Source: Adineta ricciae (taxonomy: Eukaryota; Rotifera; Eurotatoria; Adinetida; Adinetidae). From it: a stretch of DNA of 64,000 nucleotides. The stretch lies in the NCBI GenBank assembly GCA_905250025.1, contig CAJNOJ010000100.1:216520-280519 (forward strand), written 5' to 3'. Below the pieces are notes generated by a model. That model saw only the letters and a list, made by a program, of their open reading frames with translations. It was not told where the DNA came from and did no database searches. Within the stretch, counting starts at the first letter, position 1. Every line of letters starts with the position of its first letter. Positions 19,245-34,590 of this stretch are shown piece after piece. The translations under genes were made by a program, and so were the position numbers.

Positions 19245-19575
19245 ATTCGATGATTTTAATCGTAAAAATAGGTAGATTCTGCTTTGCTTCTCTCACGTTT
19301 ACCTGCCTGATTCTGTTGAATTCGACCAAATGAATGAATTTTCACCTTATGTAAGCAAATCTCTTCCTTGTTTTCAAGCAAAAAATCACATATGTGTCGT
19401 CATTTATCGAAGAAAAAAAACTGCTATAAGCAATGGAATCAATGCGTCACCAAGAAACAATTCTTATCACAAGTATTTATTTGCTTTTTTCTCTTTTCTG
19501 TTTATTCTGATTCACACACGTTATTTTTTCCTTTGTAATAGTATACGTATAAGCATTGCACTTATAGAAATTAAA

Positions 19576-20655
19576 ATGACAAGTAAGTATTTAGATTTAT
19601 CATCTTTACATCGTCGCTTTGCATCTTTGGCACTCTCTTGTGTTCATCGTGAATATCCAAACAAAATTGCTCATGTTCTTACATCCGATGCAGATATTCA
19701 AGGACCTCGTCGATTAACACCAGCGTTTTATGGTTGCTTTGATTGGCATTCGGCTGTTCATGGTTGCTTTGATTGGCATTCGGCTGTTCATGGTCATTGG
19801 TTATTGGTTCGTCTGGCACGAATCGATCAAACTCTAACAAATGAATGTTGTCAAGCACTTCGGCAAAGTTTAACAAAAGAAAATCTCGACAATGAAGTGA
19901 AATATATCGATAATAATCAACGTCAAGCATTTGAAAGACCCTATGGATTAGCATGGTTACTACAATTAACTATGGAATTAGACGAATGGTCAAAAGATAA
20001 TCATCAAATCTATTCGAAAGAAATTCATCAATGGCGTGAAAATCTTCGTCCATTAGAAGAACTTGTGGTCAAACGTTTATCATCTTGGCTTCCAAAACTA
20101 TCTTATCCCGTTCGTAGTGGTGAACATAGTCAAACAGCTTTTGCACTTGGTCTTACGCTCGATTATGCTCATCATGTAAATAATGAAACATTTGGTCAAC
20201 TGATCGAACAACAAGCGTTACGCTTTTTTGCTCAGGATAAATTCTATCCATTCAATTATGAACCGTCGGGAGAAGATTTTCTATCAGCAGGCTTAGCTGA
20301 GGCTGATCTCATACGACGTGTCATGAGAAACAATCCAGACAAATTTATTGAATGGTTAAACAACTTTTTACCTGAGAACCATCAGTTACCATCAAGTCTT
20401 GAACCACCTGCGATTGCCGATCCGTCTGATCCAAAACTGATTCATTTGGCTGGTTTGTGTCTTAGTCGAGCATGGATGTTAGAAGGAATCATTCATATGC
20501 TACCAGAAAATCATCAACAACGACATCAATTGAGCGAACTGAGTCAACGAAATGCTCATGCTGGTCTCACAGCAATTGACGAAAATCATTATGAAGGTGG
20601 ACATTGGTTGGGAACATTTGCTGTGTATTTAATCACACGTCGAGGAATTAACTGA
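19576..20655 (+). CDS. DUF2891-family protein, bacterial type
   Basis: An intronless gene of 359 residues from ATG 19576. The frame is open upstream to 19330, but the family start fits the later Met. The motifs FYGCFDWHSAVHGHW, FERPYGLAWLL, YPVRSGEHSQTAFALGL, PSGEDFLSAGLAEADL, HLAGLCLSRAW and HYEGGHWLGTFAVYL match the bacterial DUF2891 family throughout. That family has no established reaction; its His/Glu-rich alpha-helical make-up suggests a toroid-like enzyme. Being intron-free and bacterial in its closest kin, it is a probable horizontal acquisition. A 30-bp tandem duplication (19731-19790) repeats GCFDWHSAVH inside the most conserved motif, which may disable it. The first ATG has a GTAAGT two codons later, but no splice is needed. 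Confidence 0.8.
   Translation: MTSKYLDLSSLHRRFASLALSCVHREYPNKIAHVLTSDADIQGPRRLTPAFYGCFDWHSAVHGCFDWHSAVHGHWLLVRLARIDQTLTNECCQALRQSLTKENLDNEVKYIDNNQRQAFERPYGLAWLLQLTMELDEWSKDNHQIYSKEIHQWRENLRPLEELVVKRLSSWLPKLSYPVRSGEHSQTAFALGLTLDYAHHVNNETFGQLIEQQALRFFAQDKFYPFNYEPSGEDFLSAGLAEADLIRRVMRNNPDKFIEWLNNFLPENHQLPSSLEPPAIADPSDPKLIHLAGLCLSRAWMLEGIIHMLPENHQQRHQLSELSQRNAHAGLTAIDENHYEGGHWLGTFAVYLITRRGIN
19731..19790 (+). repeat. exact 30-bp tandem duplication inside DUF2891 coding sequence
   Basis: Units 19731-19760 and 19761-19790 are identical and in frame, each encoding GCFDWHSAVH. Family members as I know them have one unit, followed by GHW. Confidence 0.9.
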
Positions 20656-28366: not shown

Positions 28367-29612
28367 AGTAGTGCGGTGCTTAGATAAACGTCAAAATGTT
28401 AAGTAGTAATTGAAACTCGAACCATCTGAAATATTACGATAAAACATTCAGAATACCAAGAATATGTTTTCAAGAAACAAAGAAATACCTATGTGTTGAG
28501 TCATAAGGTATGAATTTTCTTACCTGTAAATGAATACTTATTATAGGATAGATTGTATTATACTTAGATTGATTTAGATATGGGCATCTTTCACTTACGT
28601 AAATCGTCATCTCTTTTTCTCTTAACTTACTGTTTTCGTCTACTTCTTTCTTTTCCATGTGCATTACAACAAAAATATTCGGTGATCGACAACAATAACA
28701 AAAGAAAGAGAAAGTTGAAAAAATTGCCAACAGTATAGAATGTAAGATACAAAAGAACAGAAAGAAACCCAACTCCAAGCGTAGTTTCTTTCTTGTTCTG
28801 TCTGTTTAACAAGGATTTTATAATTCAGACATGTCCCTTCGTATAAATTGACTCATTTCAAAACAACTCAATGGAAAAAAAAATCTTACTACGAAAAGTA
28901 TTTGAGAGATTTTAACCGATAGAATTCTGCTCATCGTCGTTCTCCCTTCACAAGACTGAAGTGATTTGAAAGAATTTTCCAACTTGCGACCAGCAACTAA
29001 AAGTGGGTGTGTCGTGTGGCGACATCTATATGAATAATTTTCTGATTAGTACAATGCGTTGTCGAGACAAAATATGTTTATAGATTAAAAAAATGGCAAA
29101 GTTTGACTAGTGTCTGAATAACTTATTTATTTTTCTCTCTTCTTTTTAACAGAACCACTGTTAAACATTCTTATAAAATTACAAACTTTTCTTTTTCTTT
29201 CTTTACATTCTCGTTCGTTTCCACCAGTTCGTCAATTACAAAAAAAGAACATTTTTCTTTTTTTCCGTTGTTGATCATACAGGTAAATAACTATCAGTAT
29301 TGTACATTCAAAATCATCTGTCCGTATCATAAATACAAGGAGAAAAACCTGTCGGAAGGTTATTGATCGTGCATCGTCGAAGAAGAAAAAAAACGTCCTA
29401 CTAAGGAAATTTGTTCGTTACATGAGACGCACAGAAAAAAAACCTGACTACGAAGGAAGAAAAAAGGACGACCATGATTATAAGCATAGATGTTTTACAT
29501 GTTATATTCATTTTACACATTTTGTCCTCTTCTTTTTCAAAGGATTTTGCTTATTAGTGTCGATCGTACAATCAACTTTTTTGCTTCTACTTTCAGATAC
29601 ATTTCTTTCAAT
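28367..29612. other. intergenic region, divergent promoters
   Basis: This lies between the ubiquitin protease (minus) and the TGN46-like gene (plus). It contains pyrimidine-rich tracts (29130-29290). A TTTCAG just before the second ATG (ending at about 29596) suggests a 5'UTR intron for that gene. Minus-strand open frames at 28470-28812 are hydrophobic low-complexity and lack gene character. Confidence 0.4.
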
Positions 29613-32600
29613 ATGAATTTATTCCTTATTGTATTATCATTGATTTTCTTCCATGGAAATTCAATTTCCGGAGCAGATGATAATGAACTCGAAGCAATTG
29701 ATGTTTTATCAGCAATAAAAACGACGTCACCCGATTGTGATCTTCGTACCTTTGTGAAACATAATGACGATTATACAGCATTCAGTGGAGACTTGAAAAC
29801 ATACTGTGGATCCGATTCGAAGAAACAAAATCGAATTTTATGTAATATGATTGCTTATGAACTGAAGAAAGCTTGTCAGTTTGACAAAGACGGACGTCCA
29901 TCACCAGTCATATATTCGAAAAAGTCAACACCAAAAGAAATATGTTTTTCAACAACTATCCAACTAACCAATCAATGGATATGGAATGTCCTCACAAACA
30001 ACGGGCAAAAACAAATTGATGTGACCGCCAAAGAGTTATGCGACAAGGTGGCTAATGATGAAACGACACGTCAACTAGCAAGATTTTTCTATCGAGCAGC
30101 ACCACATGTGAGAAATTCGGATCTTTCAACAACATCAAAAGGTAGGCGGAAATTGTTGACTGAAGATTTCTATGAATGAGCTATTCATTTCTGGAATGCT
30201 TCTCTGCGATGATGCAAAATATATTTCATTTTTCCATGTTTGACACAGAAAATTTTCCTAGTAGATAAAATACTTTTGTTTTGTTATTTCAGACGGCACA
30301 AAATCCAATCTGGGCAAACAAACATTGACTGAATCGATTTCCAAGACTGCCGCTGCAATTACTGCAGCTAAGGATAAAACAAAAACTGCCATTGACGGTG
30401 CCAAAGATGATGCAGATCAAACGATTGAAAAGACCAAAACTCTGAAACAGAAATTTACTGATGGTGTTGAGAACGTTAAAAACAAATTAGCTGAAGGAGG
30501 TCAAGTAGTCAAACAAAAACTTGAGAAAACTGCCGAGGATGCAAAGGAAAAAGTCGATAAGGCGATTTCCGATGTGAAAGGCAAAACTGAAGATGCTGCG
30601 AAAACTGCCAAAAGTAAAATTGACGATGCTGGTGGATCTAGAAAAGAGAAAGCCGATAAAACTACTGAAAAGCCCAAACAAAAAGCAGATGATAATGACG
30701 ACGCCGAAAACGATGCTGACGACAAAACAAAAGTAAAATCAGACAAGGATGACAACGATGATGCCGATAAGGATAAAACTGTCGATACGAAGAAAAACGT
30801 TGACGAAGATGCAGACAGTAAGAAAGATAAACTCACTAATGCTAAAAAGTTGTCGAAAGATGCCGGAGATAAAGTTGGTAAGATAAAAACGAATTCAATA
30901 TTCGCATGTTCTTCTTATTTTGTAGCCAATGCAAGCAAGACCATCGTTGAAAAAGGAAAAGAATTTCTCAATAAACTTACTAAAAAAAACGTCACAGAAA
31001 TCAAGGCGACTGGTAAAAAAATTGTCAAGTTCTTTGTTCTCAAAGGAACGATTCTTTAATGATTTTACTCTTCAGATGATCAAGGAAAGGTCTTGGATTT
31101 AAAACAAGACAAAAAGACCGATCAAAATGCTGATGAAGAAGAAGAAAAGGGTAAGATTCGAGTTGTATATACTTTATTGATGGTACAATTCGCGATTCAG
31201 ATGACGATGGTAATGGAGATGGTACGGTCAAAGACGATGGGCAAGGTATGATGAATAGTTTGTTTGACATTACTCATTCTTCTTCGTTTCTTAGTCAAAC
31301 AAATTCCCAAGCCAAACACGACAGACAAGAAAGATGATGCCACAAGTATGTAATACATTTCATGCTCTCATTTCATCCCATCTAAAGATGACTCGAGTTG
31401 ACAATAGACAGTAGATCGAATAATTTTATTTATTAAATTTAGATAATGTTGAAGTTACAACCATGCGTAAGTCATTCTCGACGGATTTCTATTCTTTGAT
31501 ACTCATTTATCTTTGTAATGAAAAGAGAAAGAAGCCGGTCGTACAACGGTAGTTGTAGGAGTACAAAGTTCGAATAAAACATTGGAAGTGACCACTCCTA
31601 GTCGTAAGTCTAATCAACCAAAATCACATAAAACCTCAAGATGACTTATCCTTTCTCTATCAGCAATTGATGTAAACCCACAGAAAGTAACCGAACCTGG
31701 TAATCATTTGCTATAAGTTTGATCTGCACCATGACTAGAATATCAATTGAATTCTTTAGTTTATATTTACAAAAGCTCACTTGCGTTTCTTTGTTGCTTT
31801 GTTTTTATTGCTTCCTCTTCTTTTTTTAATTTAAAATTGACTTAGCCCGTAGATTAGGATTGTCATTGATTTATCTCTTTTTTTTATCTGTTTAGAAAAG
31901 AAGAAACCAACAGATGCTGTCAAAGATGCCGATACTGATCAAGATGACGACGACAAAGATGACGAAACTAAACATAAAGTCGATGATATGGATAAAAAAG
32001 ATCAACTAGGTTTGTTGAAAGAAATCATCTCAGTTTTCTTTTTCTTCTTATCACCAATGATGTAGGAAATAATGAACCTGTATCTCATGATGATTATGAT
32101 GCAGCAAACACGCCTGCTGATCAAAATCAGTTAGAAAATGTACCTAACAACAACGAAGACGAAGAATATCAAGGTTTCATTAGAATGAATCTAAGCATGA
32201 TGTGTATTTTTCATATATGTACCCGTCTCAGTGTTTTATCTAGTTCGGTACTTAGGTTGCTTTCTCTTCTGCTTTTATACCTGATAAAACACTGATATAT
32301 CCCTTTAGTTAAAAATGCATCTGTAAAGGAATGCTTATTTATATTCTATTTATCGTTGGACTAATATGGAAAAGTTCACTGCGCTTTTCTCTGAGAATAT
32401 TGTCTCATTTCTATTTTGTTTTTAGCTGGAAACAAAGATGCTGACAACGATGGCATCTCATTCCGTAAACCAAATGCAAATGGTAAATAGGAACCCTTAG
32501 TTTTCCTCCGATTTGAAAAGGAAAAAACCGGCAAATTTCTTTCTAATTTAGATAAATATACAGCAAAACCAGTTGCAGCAGGTATGTTTAAATCTGTGAG

Positions 32601-33037
32601 AGAGTACACCACCTTCTCCATTTTCCCTTAGATCCAAACAAAGGAAAAGCACGAGCAAGTAAGACATATGAACTATGTTTTGTTTGTACTTTTCAATCTT
32701 TGTTTAGAACCACAAGTTGGACGTAAATACAGTGACGATGATGGTTGGTCTGGAAGTTTCGTTACATACTTCCTTTTGTTTACTTTATTCGTCGTTGTTG
32801 GTTACTTGGTCTTACATAATAAGAATAAAGTATGTGCTCGCATAATGAGTGTCTTTCGCAAGAAACAGAGAACAAACAAGACGGACGTTGTTGTTGTTGT
32901 TTTTTCTTTTCTAATGCTTCTTTTAGGTCTTGGGTTTATTAATTGAAGGTTGTAGACGAAACCGTTCATCATCTGGACGTCGTAATGGCAGCAGTTCGAG
33001 TTCAACACGATATCAACGCTTGTCCCAGTCATCTTAG
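29613..33037 (+). CDS. TGOLN2-like: TGN38/TGN46-like trans-Golgi type I membrane protein (isoform A, tail ending in YQRL motif)
   Basis: Sixteen exons (29613-30141, 30293-30877, 30926-31012, 31076-31150, 31201-31245, 31295-31345, 31443-31466, 31532-31603, 31664-31699, 31896-32009, 32066-32173, 32426-32482, 32552-32581, 32632-32658, 32708-32829, 32927-33037) give about 690 residues. There is a signal peptide (MNLFLIVLSLIFFHGNSISG), a Cys-containing luminal head, a very long Lys/Asp/Glu-rich disordered lumen, one membrane span (FVTYFLLFTLFVVVGYLVL) and a tail HNKNKVLGLLIEG...TRYQRLSQSS. Human TGN46 has HNKRK...FVLEG...YQRL at the same place; YQRL is the AP-2/AP-1 sorting signal that cycles it between trans-Golgi and surface. 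Introns 1-14 are all phase 1 and exons 2-14 are multiples of three, so any can be skipped in frame. A polyadenylation-type AATAAA-like run follows the stop. Confidence 0.8.
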
Positions 33038-33208
33038 AATAAATAACTAAATAAAAACAACCAACGTCCGTCTCTATGTTTTTCTCATAAAATTGTCTTT
33101 GTCCCTCTGTCTCCTCTTTGACATACTTTGTAATCCTAGCTACTTTTTATAGTTGTTTCACGTCGATGTCTTGTCATTTTTCAATTTCTTTGTTTTTCTT
33201 TTCTCAAG

Positions 33209-33370
33209 TTAATGGCATATGTTCTCGAAGGTCGTCGAACAAGCGGCTCACGCACTGGCAGTCGGCCATCTCATCGTGGTTATGAAAAATTAAAGAATAT
33301 AAATGATATCATACCAATTGATGATACAAATCCTGTATCAGATAAAGAGGCTGTTATATTAAAAGCTTAA
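33209..33370 (+). CDS. TGOLN2-like: alternative last exon of the TGN46-like gene (isoform B tail)
   Basis: After a strong pyrimidine tract and AG (33185-33208) an open exon of 53 codons joins in frame to the same donor at 32830. It reads LMAYVLEGRRTSGSRTGSRP, then RGYEKLKN, an acidic end and a stop. The pattern (hydrophobic...EG, Arg/Ser-rich linker, Tyr-x-x-Leu) repeats that of the first tail (VLGLLIEG...RYQRL) and of mammalian TGN46 (FVLEG...YQRL). The two exons therefore look like tandem duplicates used as alternatives, giving a YQRL tail or a longer YEKL tail with the same membrane span. The first exon has its own poly(A)-like signals, so the choice could be made by splicing or by 3'-end use. 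Expression is not shown. Confidence 0.7.
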   Translation, partial: LMAYVLEGRRTSGSRTGSRPSHRGYEKLKNINDIIPIDDTNPVSDKEAVILKA

Positions 33371-34590
33371 ATTAAATTATTTCAATTTTTTTCTTCTTAT
33401 CGGACTGAAACTATATATACAAAAAGAACTGTGATTTAATCTTCTTTTCATTTATCATGTTTTTTTTGTCGGTCTTTCAATCTTTTTTTTTCTTTTCTGT
33501 TCTCCTGTTTTTTCTTTGTTTTCCGTTCGGTATTTTATCTCTTTTGATTACTCTCATATGTTTTCTCACGCATCTAGTTCAAGCTTAATGTTCTCGTAGA
33601 AATTCAACCTTTGGTTTGCTGGAGTTATTGTTATTACTACCAATCATATCGTCGTTGTTCCTTTGGCTTAAGTTTTGTGTTTTGTGTAACTGTAAGAAAT
33701 AAAACAGAAAGAAAGTTTTCTCTTCAATTCGTTCGTTAGAAAGCAAGTGGAAAAGATACGCTTGATTGGTAACGGTTTTTACAATGAAAAAAAACTGAAT
33801 AAGTTTTCGTCATATGATTTTGTTGATTGCTCGAAGTACCAGATCGTTGTCCAAATCTTTTCACGTGTTACCATTCAACTTTTATTGATTGGAAAGAAAT
33901 TCACCTGTAACTGAATGAAATTGGCTGTCGATGAAACGTATCTTTGATTGCAAATTGTATTTCAAATAGCAATCATTCATTTACTAAAGGAGAAAAACGA
34001 CTGTAATATGATGTATTGTCTCTGGCCATACAACATGTGATTTGATTGTAGAATTATTTTTTAGTACATAATGTACTTTTTCTTCAACTGTTAATTTTAA
34101 TCTTTCGAATGCAAATGTGCCTAAATTAATCACGTTGAACCATACTCAAACAATAGTATTTACCGTTCAAATTGAGGGGGTCAATATACATGTAAAATTC
34201 TTTGTTTGTGATTTTATTTTATCCTCAACATCTTGTTGTTTTATAAATTTTGATACATCGATTAATTTTGTAAATCGCTATTTGTATTAAGTAATGATAA
34301 TGTTTTTACAAAGGCGGTTGATTTTATGAAAAAGTCATATTTTGTATCCGATGGACTGATTTGCATGAGTTGATCTGTTGTATTTTTAATTTTATTTGAT
34401 ACTATGTATGTAAAAAGTGTGTTGTTAACAAATACCTTTAAGCAAAATGATAATGAATGATTTCATCATGAGAATCATCGAGAGAAACTTGTTCGTAGAA
34501 ACAAAAGTAAAATATGGAGAAATATCTTTCGACTTATCTTGAATTTCTAACTATGCTTAGTAATATCGTCGAAAATATTGAATACAACAT
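33371..34590. other. intergenic region
   Basis: This is the 3' flank of the TGN46-like gene. It is T-rich at 33390-33560, then AT-rich with no open frame of note. Confidence 0.4.

Follow-up and report, generated by a model that had tools for sequence, protein, structure and literature searches.

Two in-frame tandem last exons predicted to give alternative TGN38/46-type tails to a type I membrane protein of the bdelloid rotifer Adineta ricciae

The YxxPhi tail of TGN38/46 returns the protein from the cell surface to the trans-Golgi network. In mammals, tail variants of the TGOLN2 gene arise through splice choices that lengthen or reframe a single tail. The mammalian isoforms carry the names TGN38, TGN48, and TGN51 (PMC9988951, in part). 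In human TGN46, the YQRL signal lies at residues 430 to 433 of 437, four residues before the end, and the protein is described as a receptor for cargo, with a tail that influences where exactly in the Golgi it resides (PMC10928510, in part). TGN-38 of C. elegans recycles between the surface and the trans-Golgi, and some of it normally seems to reach the lysosome; the accessible part of that report makes no mention of a two-tail form (PMC10166553). SorCS2 is a single sorting receptor to which alternative splicing gives several tails with different adaptor binding and location (PMC10463258, in part), and Dscam-type mutually exclusive exons are duplicated exons that, with intronic complementary sequences, come under RNA-structure control (PMC6071210, in part).

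Here, we analyzed a 64,000-nucleotide stretch of A. ricciae DNA, referred to below as the window, in which positions are counted from the first letter. A sequence-only reading of this DNA had proposed that the donor at 32830 can be joined in frame either to 32927-33037 or to 33209-33370, and both the coordinates and the phase 0 of this proposal proved correct. The membrane-span exon (32708-32829, plus strand; ...SFVTYFLLFTLFVVVGYLVLHNKNK) is entered in phase 1 and ends at 32829 at AAA/GTATGT in phase 0. Behind its donor, on the same strand, lie exon A (32927-33037), whose translation is VLGLLIEGCRRNRSSSGRRNGSSSSSTRYQRLSQSS and which runs from VLGLLIEG to RYQRLSQSS before its stop, and exon B (33209-33370), whose translation is LMAYVLEGRRTSGSRTGSRPSHRGYEKLKNINDIIPIDDTNPVSDKEAVILKA and which runs from LMAYVLEGRR to RGYEKL and then through 25 further residues to its stop. 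Both exons, placed by frame, motif, and acceptor, carry on the phase-0 frame of the membrane-span exon through to a stop. Taken together, these features are those of one donor followed by two last exons in tandem, both in frame, as predicted from the genomic sequence. We estimate a probability of roughly 0.6 that the gene encodes a TGN38/46-type type I membrane protein whose cytosolic tail would be chosen at the RNA level via these tandem alternative last exons.

Each last exon is followed by its own potential poly(A) signals. Two AATAAA motifs stand directly behind exon A, at 33038 and 33050 (33038-33055, plus strand), and the possible signals of exon B, ATTAAA at 33371 and AATAAA at 33698 (33371-33703, plus strand), are less certain than those of A. 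A shared donor, two in-frame acceptors, two stops, and separate poly(A) signals make up the arrangement of alternative last exons, and the signals at 33038 and 33050 could terminate A's transcript ahead of B. The two exons had been called mutually exclusive, which is not strictly right: exon A has a stop codon followed by AATAAA, and because its transcript can end before B is reached, they qualify as alternative last exons, not as internal exons that exclude each other.

For scoring the splice sites, a matrix was derived from 237 introns called automatically across the remainder of the window, a set that is noisy and probably inflated; on this matrix, acceptors A and B fall at the 82nd and 96th percentiles, respectively, and the donor at the 84th. 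With the same matrix, 3.8% of the plus-strand AGs (n = 2938) score at least as high as the acceptor of A and 0.7% as high as that of B. The earlier description of both acceptors as good is reasonable, although B's ends in AAG. By codon score, the proposed frame was the best of six for the membrane-span exon, A, and B, at levels that are ordinary for the window, where 39.6%, 30.6%, and 35.5% of open segments, respectively, score the same or higher. A composite of exons A and B was rejected, as the first, hand-made matrix yielded no donor above 3 inside A; GTAATG within A (GT at 32982) would leave phase 1 and is unfit for B, with weaker donors outside this check. An acceptor for B at 33140 is in frame but weaker (2.8 versus 6.7) and would add 23 mostly hydrophobic residues; it was likewise rejected. 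No tandem repeats were found in 29400-33700, and an Rfam scan of 29000-34000 gave nothing at gathering scores.

The remainder of the gene was modeled with a dynamic-programming procedure in which the splice matrices were set by hand. In this model, exon 1 (29613-30141, plus strand), supported also by hydropathy, contains the start codon, a signal-peptide-like N terminus, and a first luminal region with six cysteines. It is followed, again on the plus strand, by ten predicted luminal exons (30293-30877, 30926-31012, 31076-31150, 31295-31345, 31443-31466, 31664-31699, 31896-32009, 32426-32482, 32552-32581, and 32632-32658), of which the small ones are uncertain, with one or two possibly missed. 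The predicted proteins have 615 residues with exon A and 632 with exon B, and in both the sole places where the 19-residue hydropathy exceeds 1.6 are residue 3 and residues 551-558. This gives the type I layout of a signal peptide, called here from hydropathy alone, a long luminal domain, a single span near the C terminus, and a short tail. The luminal part is rich in Lys and Asp (94 and 79, respectively, in the first 545 residues), and its match to the apolipoprotein-like family PF01442 lies below the cut-off (27.0 versus 90 bits).

Two side observations concern the same model. All ten luminal exons between 30293 and 32658 start in phase 1 and have a length that is a multiple of 3, so that skipping any of them would keep the frame and luminal length variants are possible. 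Upstream, a CTTTCAG acceptor-like site (29590-29612) stops 16 bases short of the start codon at 29613 and fits either an intron in the 5′ UTR or trans-splicing of a spliced leader, a process that bdelloids use.

To both tails the sequence-only reading had attributed the pattern of the mammalian TGN46 tail. We surveyed the frames behind every AG on both strands of the whole window, keeping phase-0 frames of at least 8 residues (n = 3781). A hydrophobic residue followed by V, I, or L and then EG near the start occurred in 2 of these 3781 frames, namely, exons A and B, and both also contain a later YxxPhi. Aligned with a reference taken as the human TGN46 tail, B scored 50 and A 38, while the next distinct frame reached 31; a further frame scoring 50, from 33140, is B's own frame begun further upstream. 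A and B are the two best distinct matches to this reference among the 3781 frames. When the tails were shuffled with their composition kept, the score against the reference was reached in 1 of 10,000 shuffles of A and in none of 10,000 of B. The two exons aligned with each other at a score of 44, a modest similarity that was nevertheless reached in only 7 of 10,000 shuffles of A and 2 of 10,000 of B. In both exons, HNKNK is followed, ungapped, by residues matching those after HNKRK in the human reference tail. The YxxPhi is near the C terminus in A only, as 25 residues come after it in B. These comparisons uphold the claimed pattern and indicate, on sequence evidence, that the TGN38/46 tail layout is present in both exons beyond chance; A and B probably descend from an old tandem exon duplication.

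Similarity as modest as that between A and B is also what might be seen if a single tail were truly used and the other exon were a former or unused duplicate, open by chance or on account of its recent age. Frames of 36 and 53 codons would stay open by chance with frequencies of about 6.5% and 1.8%, respectively, at this composition. Against this stands the preservation of acceptor, frame, stop, EG motif, and YxxPhi in both exons. Moreover, of the two it is B whose acceptor is better and whose tail lies closer to TGN46, while A has an exact YQRL and clear AATAAA signals, so that neither looks decayed. We consider an unused duplicate unlikely.

Whether the protein belongs to the TGN38/46 family is a separate question, and the label "TGN38/46-like" stood in part: it is supported by the tail layout and the architecture and not by a family profile. 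Joined to A, the membrane-span exon matched Pfam KCT2 (PF17818), a family we presume to be related to TGOLN2, at 16.8 bits (E = 0.0078), and joined to B it did so at 12.3 bits (E = 0.19), with the latter match covering essentially the membrane part; the cut-off is 26.2 bits. Among controls with shuffled tails, 1 of 4 with shuffled A (14.5 bits) and 0 of 4 with shuffled B also matched, and the shuffled-A match spans residues 16-50, the same stretch as the match of B. Being below the cut-off and shared with a shuffled-tail control, the KCT2 match was dropped as proof of family. Neither full-length isoform matched KCT2 at E values up to 10, and the tails alone or the membrane-span exon alone (five queries) matched no Pfam family. 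The case for the family would therefore rest on tail layout and architecture, membership not being established by profile.

A PDB sequence search with the membrane-span exon plus A returned six distinct sequences, all of them 5-HT2A receptor entries, at E values of 0.89-2.6, which is the level of chance. The same query against viral contigs gave 146 pattern stretches and exon 1 against prokaryotic genome contigs gave 41, with no relative in either case, as expected of collections made up of viral or prokaryotic sequences. Among the matches listed in the literature, none had a title dealing with a TGN38/46 of rotifers or with tail exons that have been duplicated, which is not a claim of absence from print.

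The lack of a significant TGN-type family match for the full protein would suit a different account, in which the tails do alternate but belong to some other type I membrane protein that converged on EG...YxxPhi and is no relative of TGN38/46. Exon 1 leaves room for this account as well: a Pfam search with its six-cysteine region (29613-30141) found no family match, and its single-sequence structure prediction was useless (mean pLDDT 44.5) and not used. Convergence would, however, have had to produce in both exons HNKNK and the ungapped stretch that matches the human reference tail after HNKRK, and to do so in a protein whose signal peptide, charged luminal domain, single span, and short tail fit TGN38/46. 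We regard such a convergence as doubtful.

The two tails might be expected to route the protein differently. Splicing of the membrane-span exon to A, with cleavage after the AATAAA signals, would give a short, basic, Ser-rich tail ending in YQRL plus four residues, and skipping of A would give a tail in which GYEKL is extended by 25 residues. Clathrin adaptors could then read the two YxxPhi signals with different preference, such that tail choice would set the route, with A favoring recycling to the trans-Golgi network and B more traffic to endosomes and lysosomes. Exon A resembles human TGN46 in having four residues (SQSS) after YQRL (PMC10928510, in part). A TGN38 peptide, KVTRRPKASDYQRL, has served as an AP2 ligand, and this peptide as found there is part of our reference tail (PMC3655264, in part). 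YxxPhi signals of the lysosomal kind usually show a Gly ahead of Tyr, acidic X residues, and a position at the extreme C terminus, and purely endocytic ones lie 10 to 40 residues from the membrane (PMC5428834, in part). In B, GYEKL has the Gly before Tyr and one acidic X, but its second X is Lys and it is not C terminal; in A, RYQRL is near the C terminus and has neither the Gly nor an acidic X. B thus seems to fit the lysosomal kind partly, by residues and not by position. The routing difference is only partly backed, because B's signal is not C terminal while A's nearly is and because B's second X is Lys, and it remains a prediction with mixed support. Counting against it, the human tail is dispensable for export of TGN46 in CARTS (PMC10928510, in part).

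New here is an inverted repeat around exon A. An inverted-repeat search and folding identified a perfect 12-bp pairing between a 5′ arm, AGACGGACGTTG (32879-32890, plus strand), and a 3′ arm, CAACGTCCGTCT (33062-33073, plus strand), which begins in the presumed cleavage zone, 6 bases past the second AATAAA. The arms surround the acceptor of A, exon A, and both AATAAA signals, and the stem is lengthened by weaker flanking pairing. Perfect inverted repeats of 11 bases with arms no more than 300 bases apart number 21 in the window, and the two that have all four letters and at least 5 G+C are both part of this stem. In four folding contexts, 10 of the 12 core pairs had a probability of at least 0.98 (outermost 0.88-0.93, innermost 0.51). 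Pairing of the upstream intron with the 171 bases that follow A has a duplex energy of −46.5 kcal/mol, which none of 1000 dinucleotide shuffles reached (best, −45.3).

One could accordingly take the hairpin to be the main feature of the locus, a structural splicing and polyadenylation switch that decides between A and B, as the perfect arms, the shuffles, and the core pairing would allow. Other controls speak against giving it this role. Placements of the same geometry in the window reached −46.5 kcal/mol in 19 of 1274 cases (1.5%, at least one being the hairpin itself), and long stems are common: 424 folds of 600 bases (at least 10 pairs, loops of 100 to 350, G-U allowed) listed 123 stems, 41 with at least 12 pairs, although some are shorter versions of others and the exon A stem is listed once per strand. 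The 379-base intron fold has a z score of −1.42, and 8 of 100 shuffles matched its stability. The shared donor has a mean unpaired probability of 0.15, compared with 0.34 for A's tract, 0.21 for the cleavage zone, and 0.43 for B's tract; because the shared donor is more paired than A's tract, the fold does not cleanly single out A. Pairing energies also revealed no competing complementary site near B of the docking-selector kind: the 5′ arm has a pairing energy of −27.8 kcal/mol with sequence 3′ of A, compared with −14.0 upstream of B, −13.4 in B, and −10.1 downstream, and no Dscam-like competing selector was found. The hairpin was, moreover, noticed after the fact, and we estimate from the controls a chance level of about 1 to 3% for such a hairpin at a given exon. 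As a primary switch it is improbable. Separately, the intron before A (32860-32882) and the region before acceptor B (33168-33190) show an imperfect complementarity (23 nt, 74%), which is weak and probably due to chance.

As an accessory to the preferred reading of alternative tails on a TGN38/46-type protein, the hairpin could loop out exon A, a role that is only suggestive because 1.5% of placements reach its duplex energy. We would more weakly suppose that it favors skipping of A by looping out the acceptor and covering the cleavage zone. The full combination, in which a duplicated last exon provides two complete, separately polyadenylated tails, one recycling and one lysosome leaning, at a ratio set by the hairpin, seems a long shot.

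The weakest alternative, that exon B is part of a separate downstream gene, would account for its position 171 bases past A's stop and beyond A's AATAAA signals, but it is very improbable, given that the acceptor opening B is strong and keeps the phase of the membrane-span exon, that B repeats the same tail, and that its open frame (33140-33370) has no ATG before that of LMAY and no signal peptide after it.

The surroundings of the gene were surveyed through the stop-to-stop open reading frames of at least 220 residues, 16 in the window, two of which belong to this gene. Ten of the others were scanned for family matches. Six matched (Fringe, DUF2891, dynein motor region, FMO-like, rhodopsin-type receptor, and ubiquitin hydrolase), several of these families being of animal type, and four had no family match. 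The match to DUF2891 (19276-20652, E = 1.6e-124) makes that open reading frame a candidate horizontally acquired gene, because the family is, as we assume, mainly bacterial. The families of the window fit an animal with a bacterial-type gene, as is the case in bdelloid genomes.

A gene with two built-in tails would, if real, amount to a natural experiment on YxxPhi context versus route, and it would be an invertebrate instance of tail choice arisen through duplication of an exon. Should the hairpin function, the address of a protein would come under the control of RNA folding. Compared with Dscam-type exons, the exons here are last exons, A is enclosed by a single hairpin, and B lacks a competing selector. 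SorCS2 varies its tail by inserts (an acidic cluster, a serine), whereas here whole last exons would be swapped (PMC10463258, in part). C. elegans TGN-38 is likewise an invertebrate TGN38, a likeness drawn from description. With mammalian TGN38/TGN46 (TGOLN2), compared in topology, span, and tail, the predicted protein shares the type I layout, the one span, and the short tail with YQRL; it differs from mammalian TGOLN2 in having a pair of whole tail exons, both of which carry an EG...YxxPhi.
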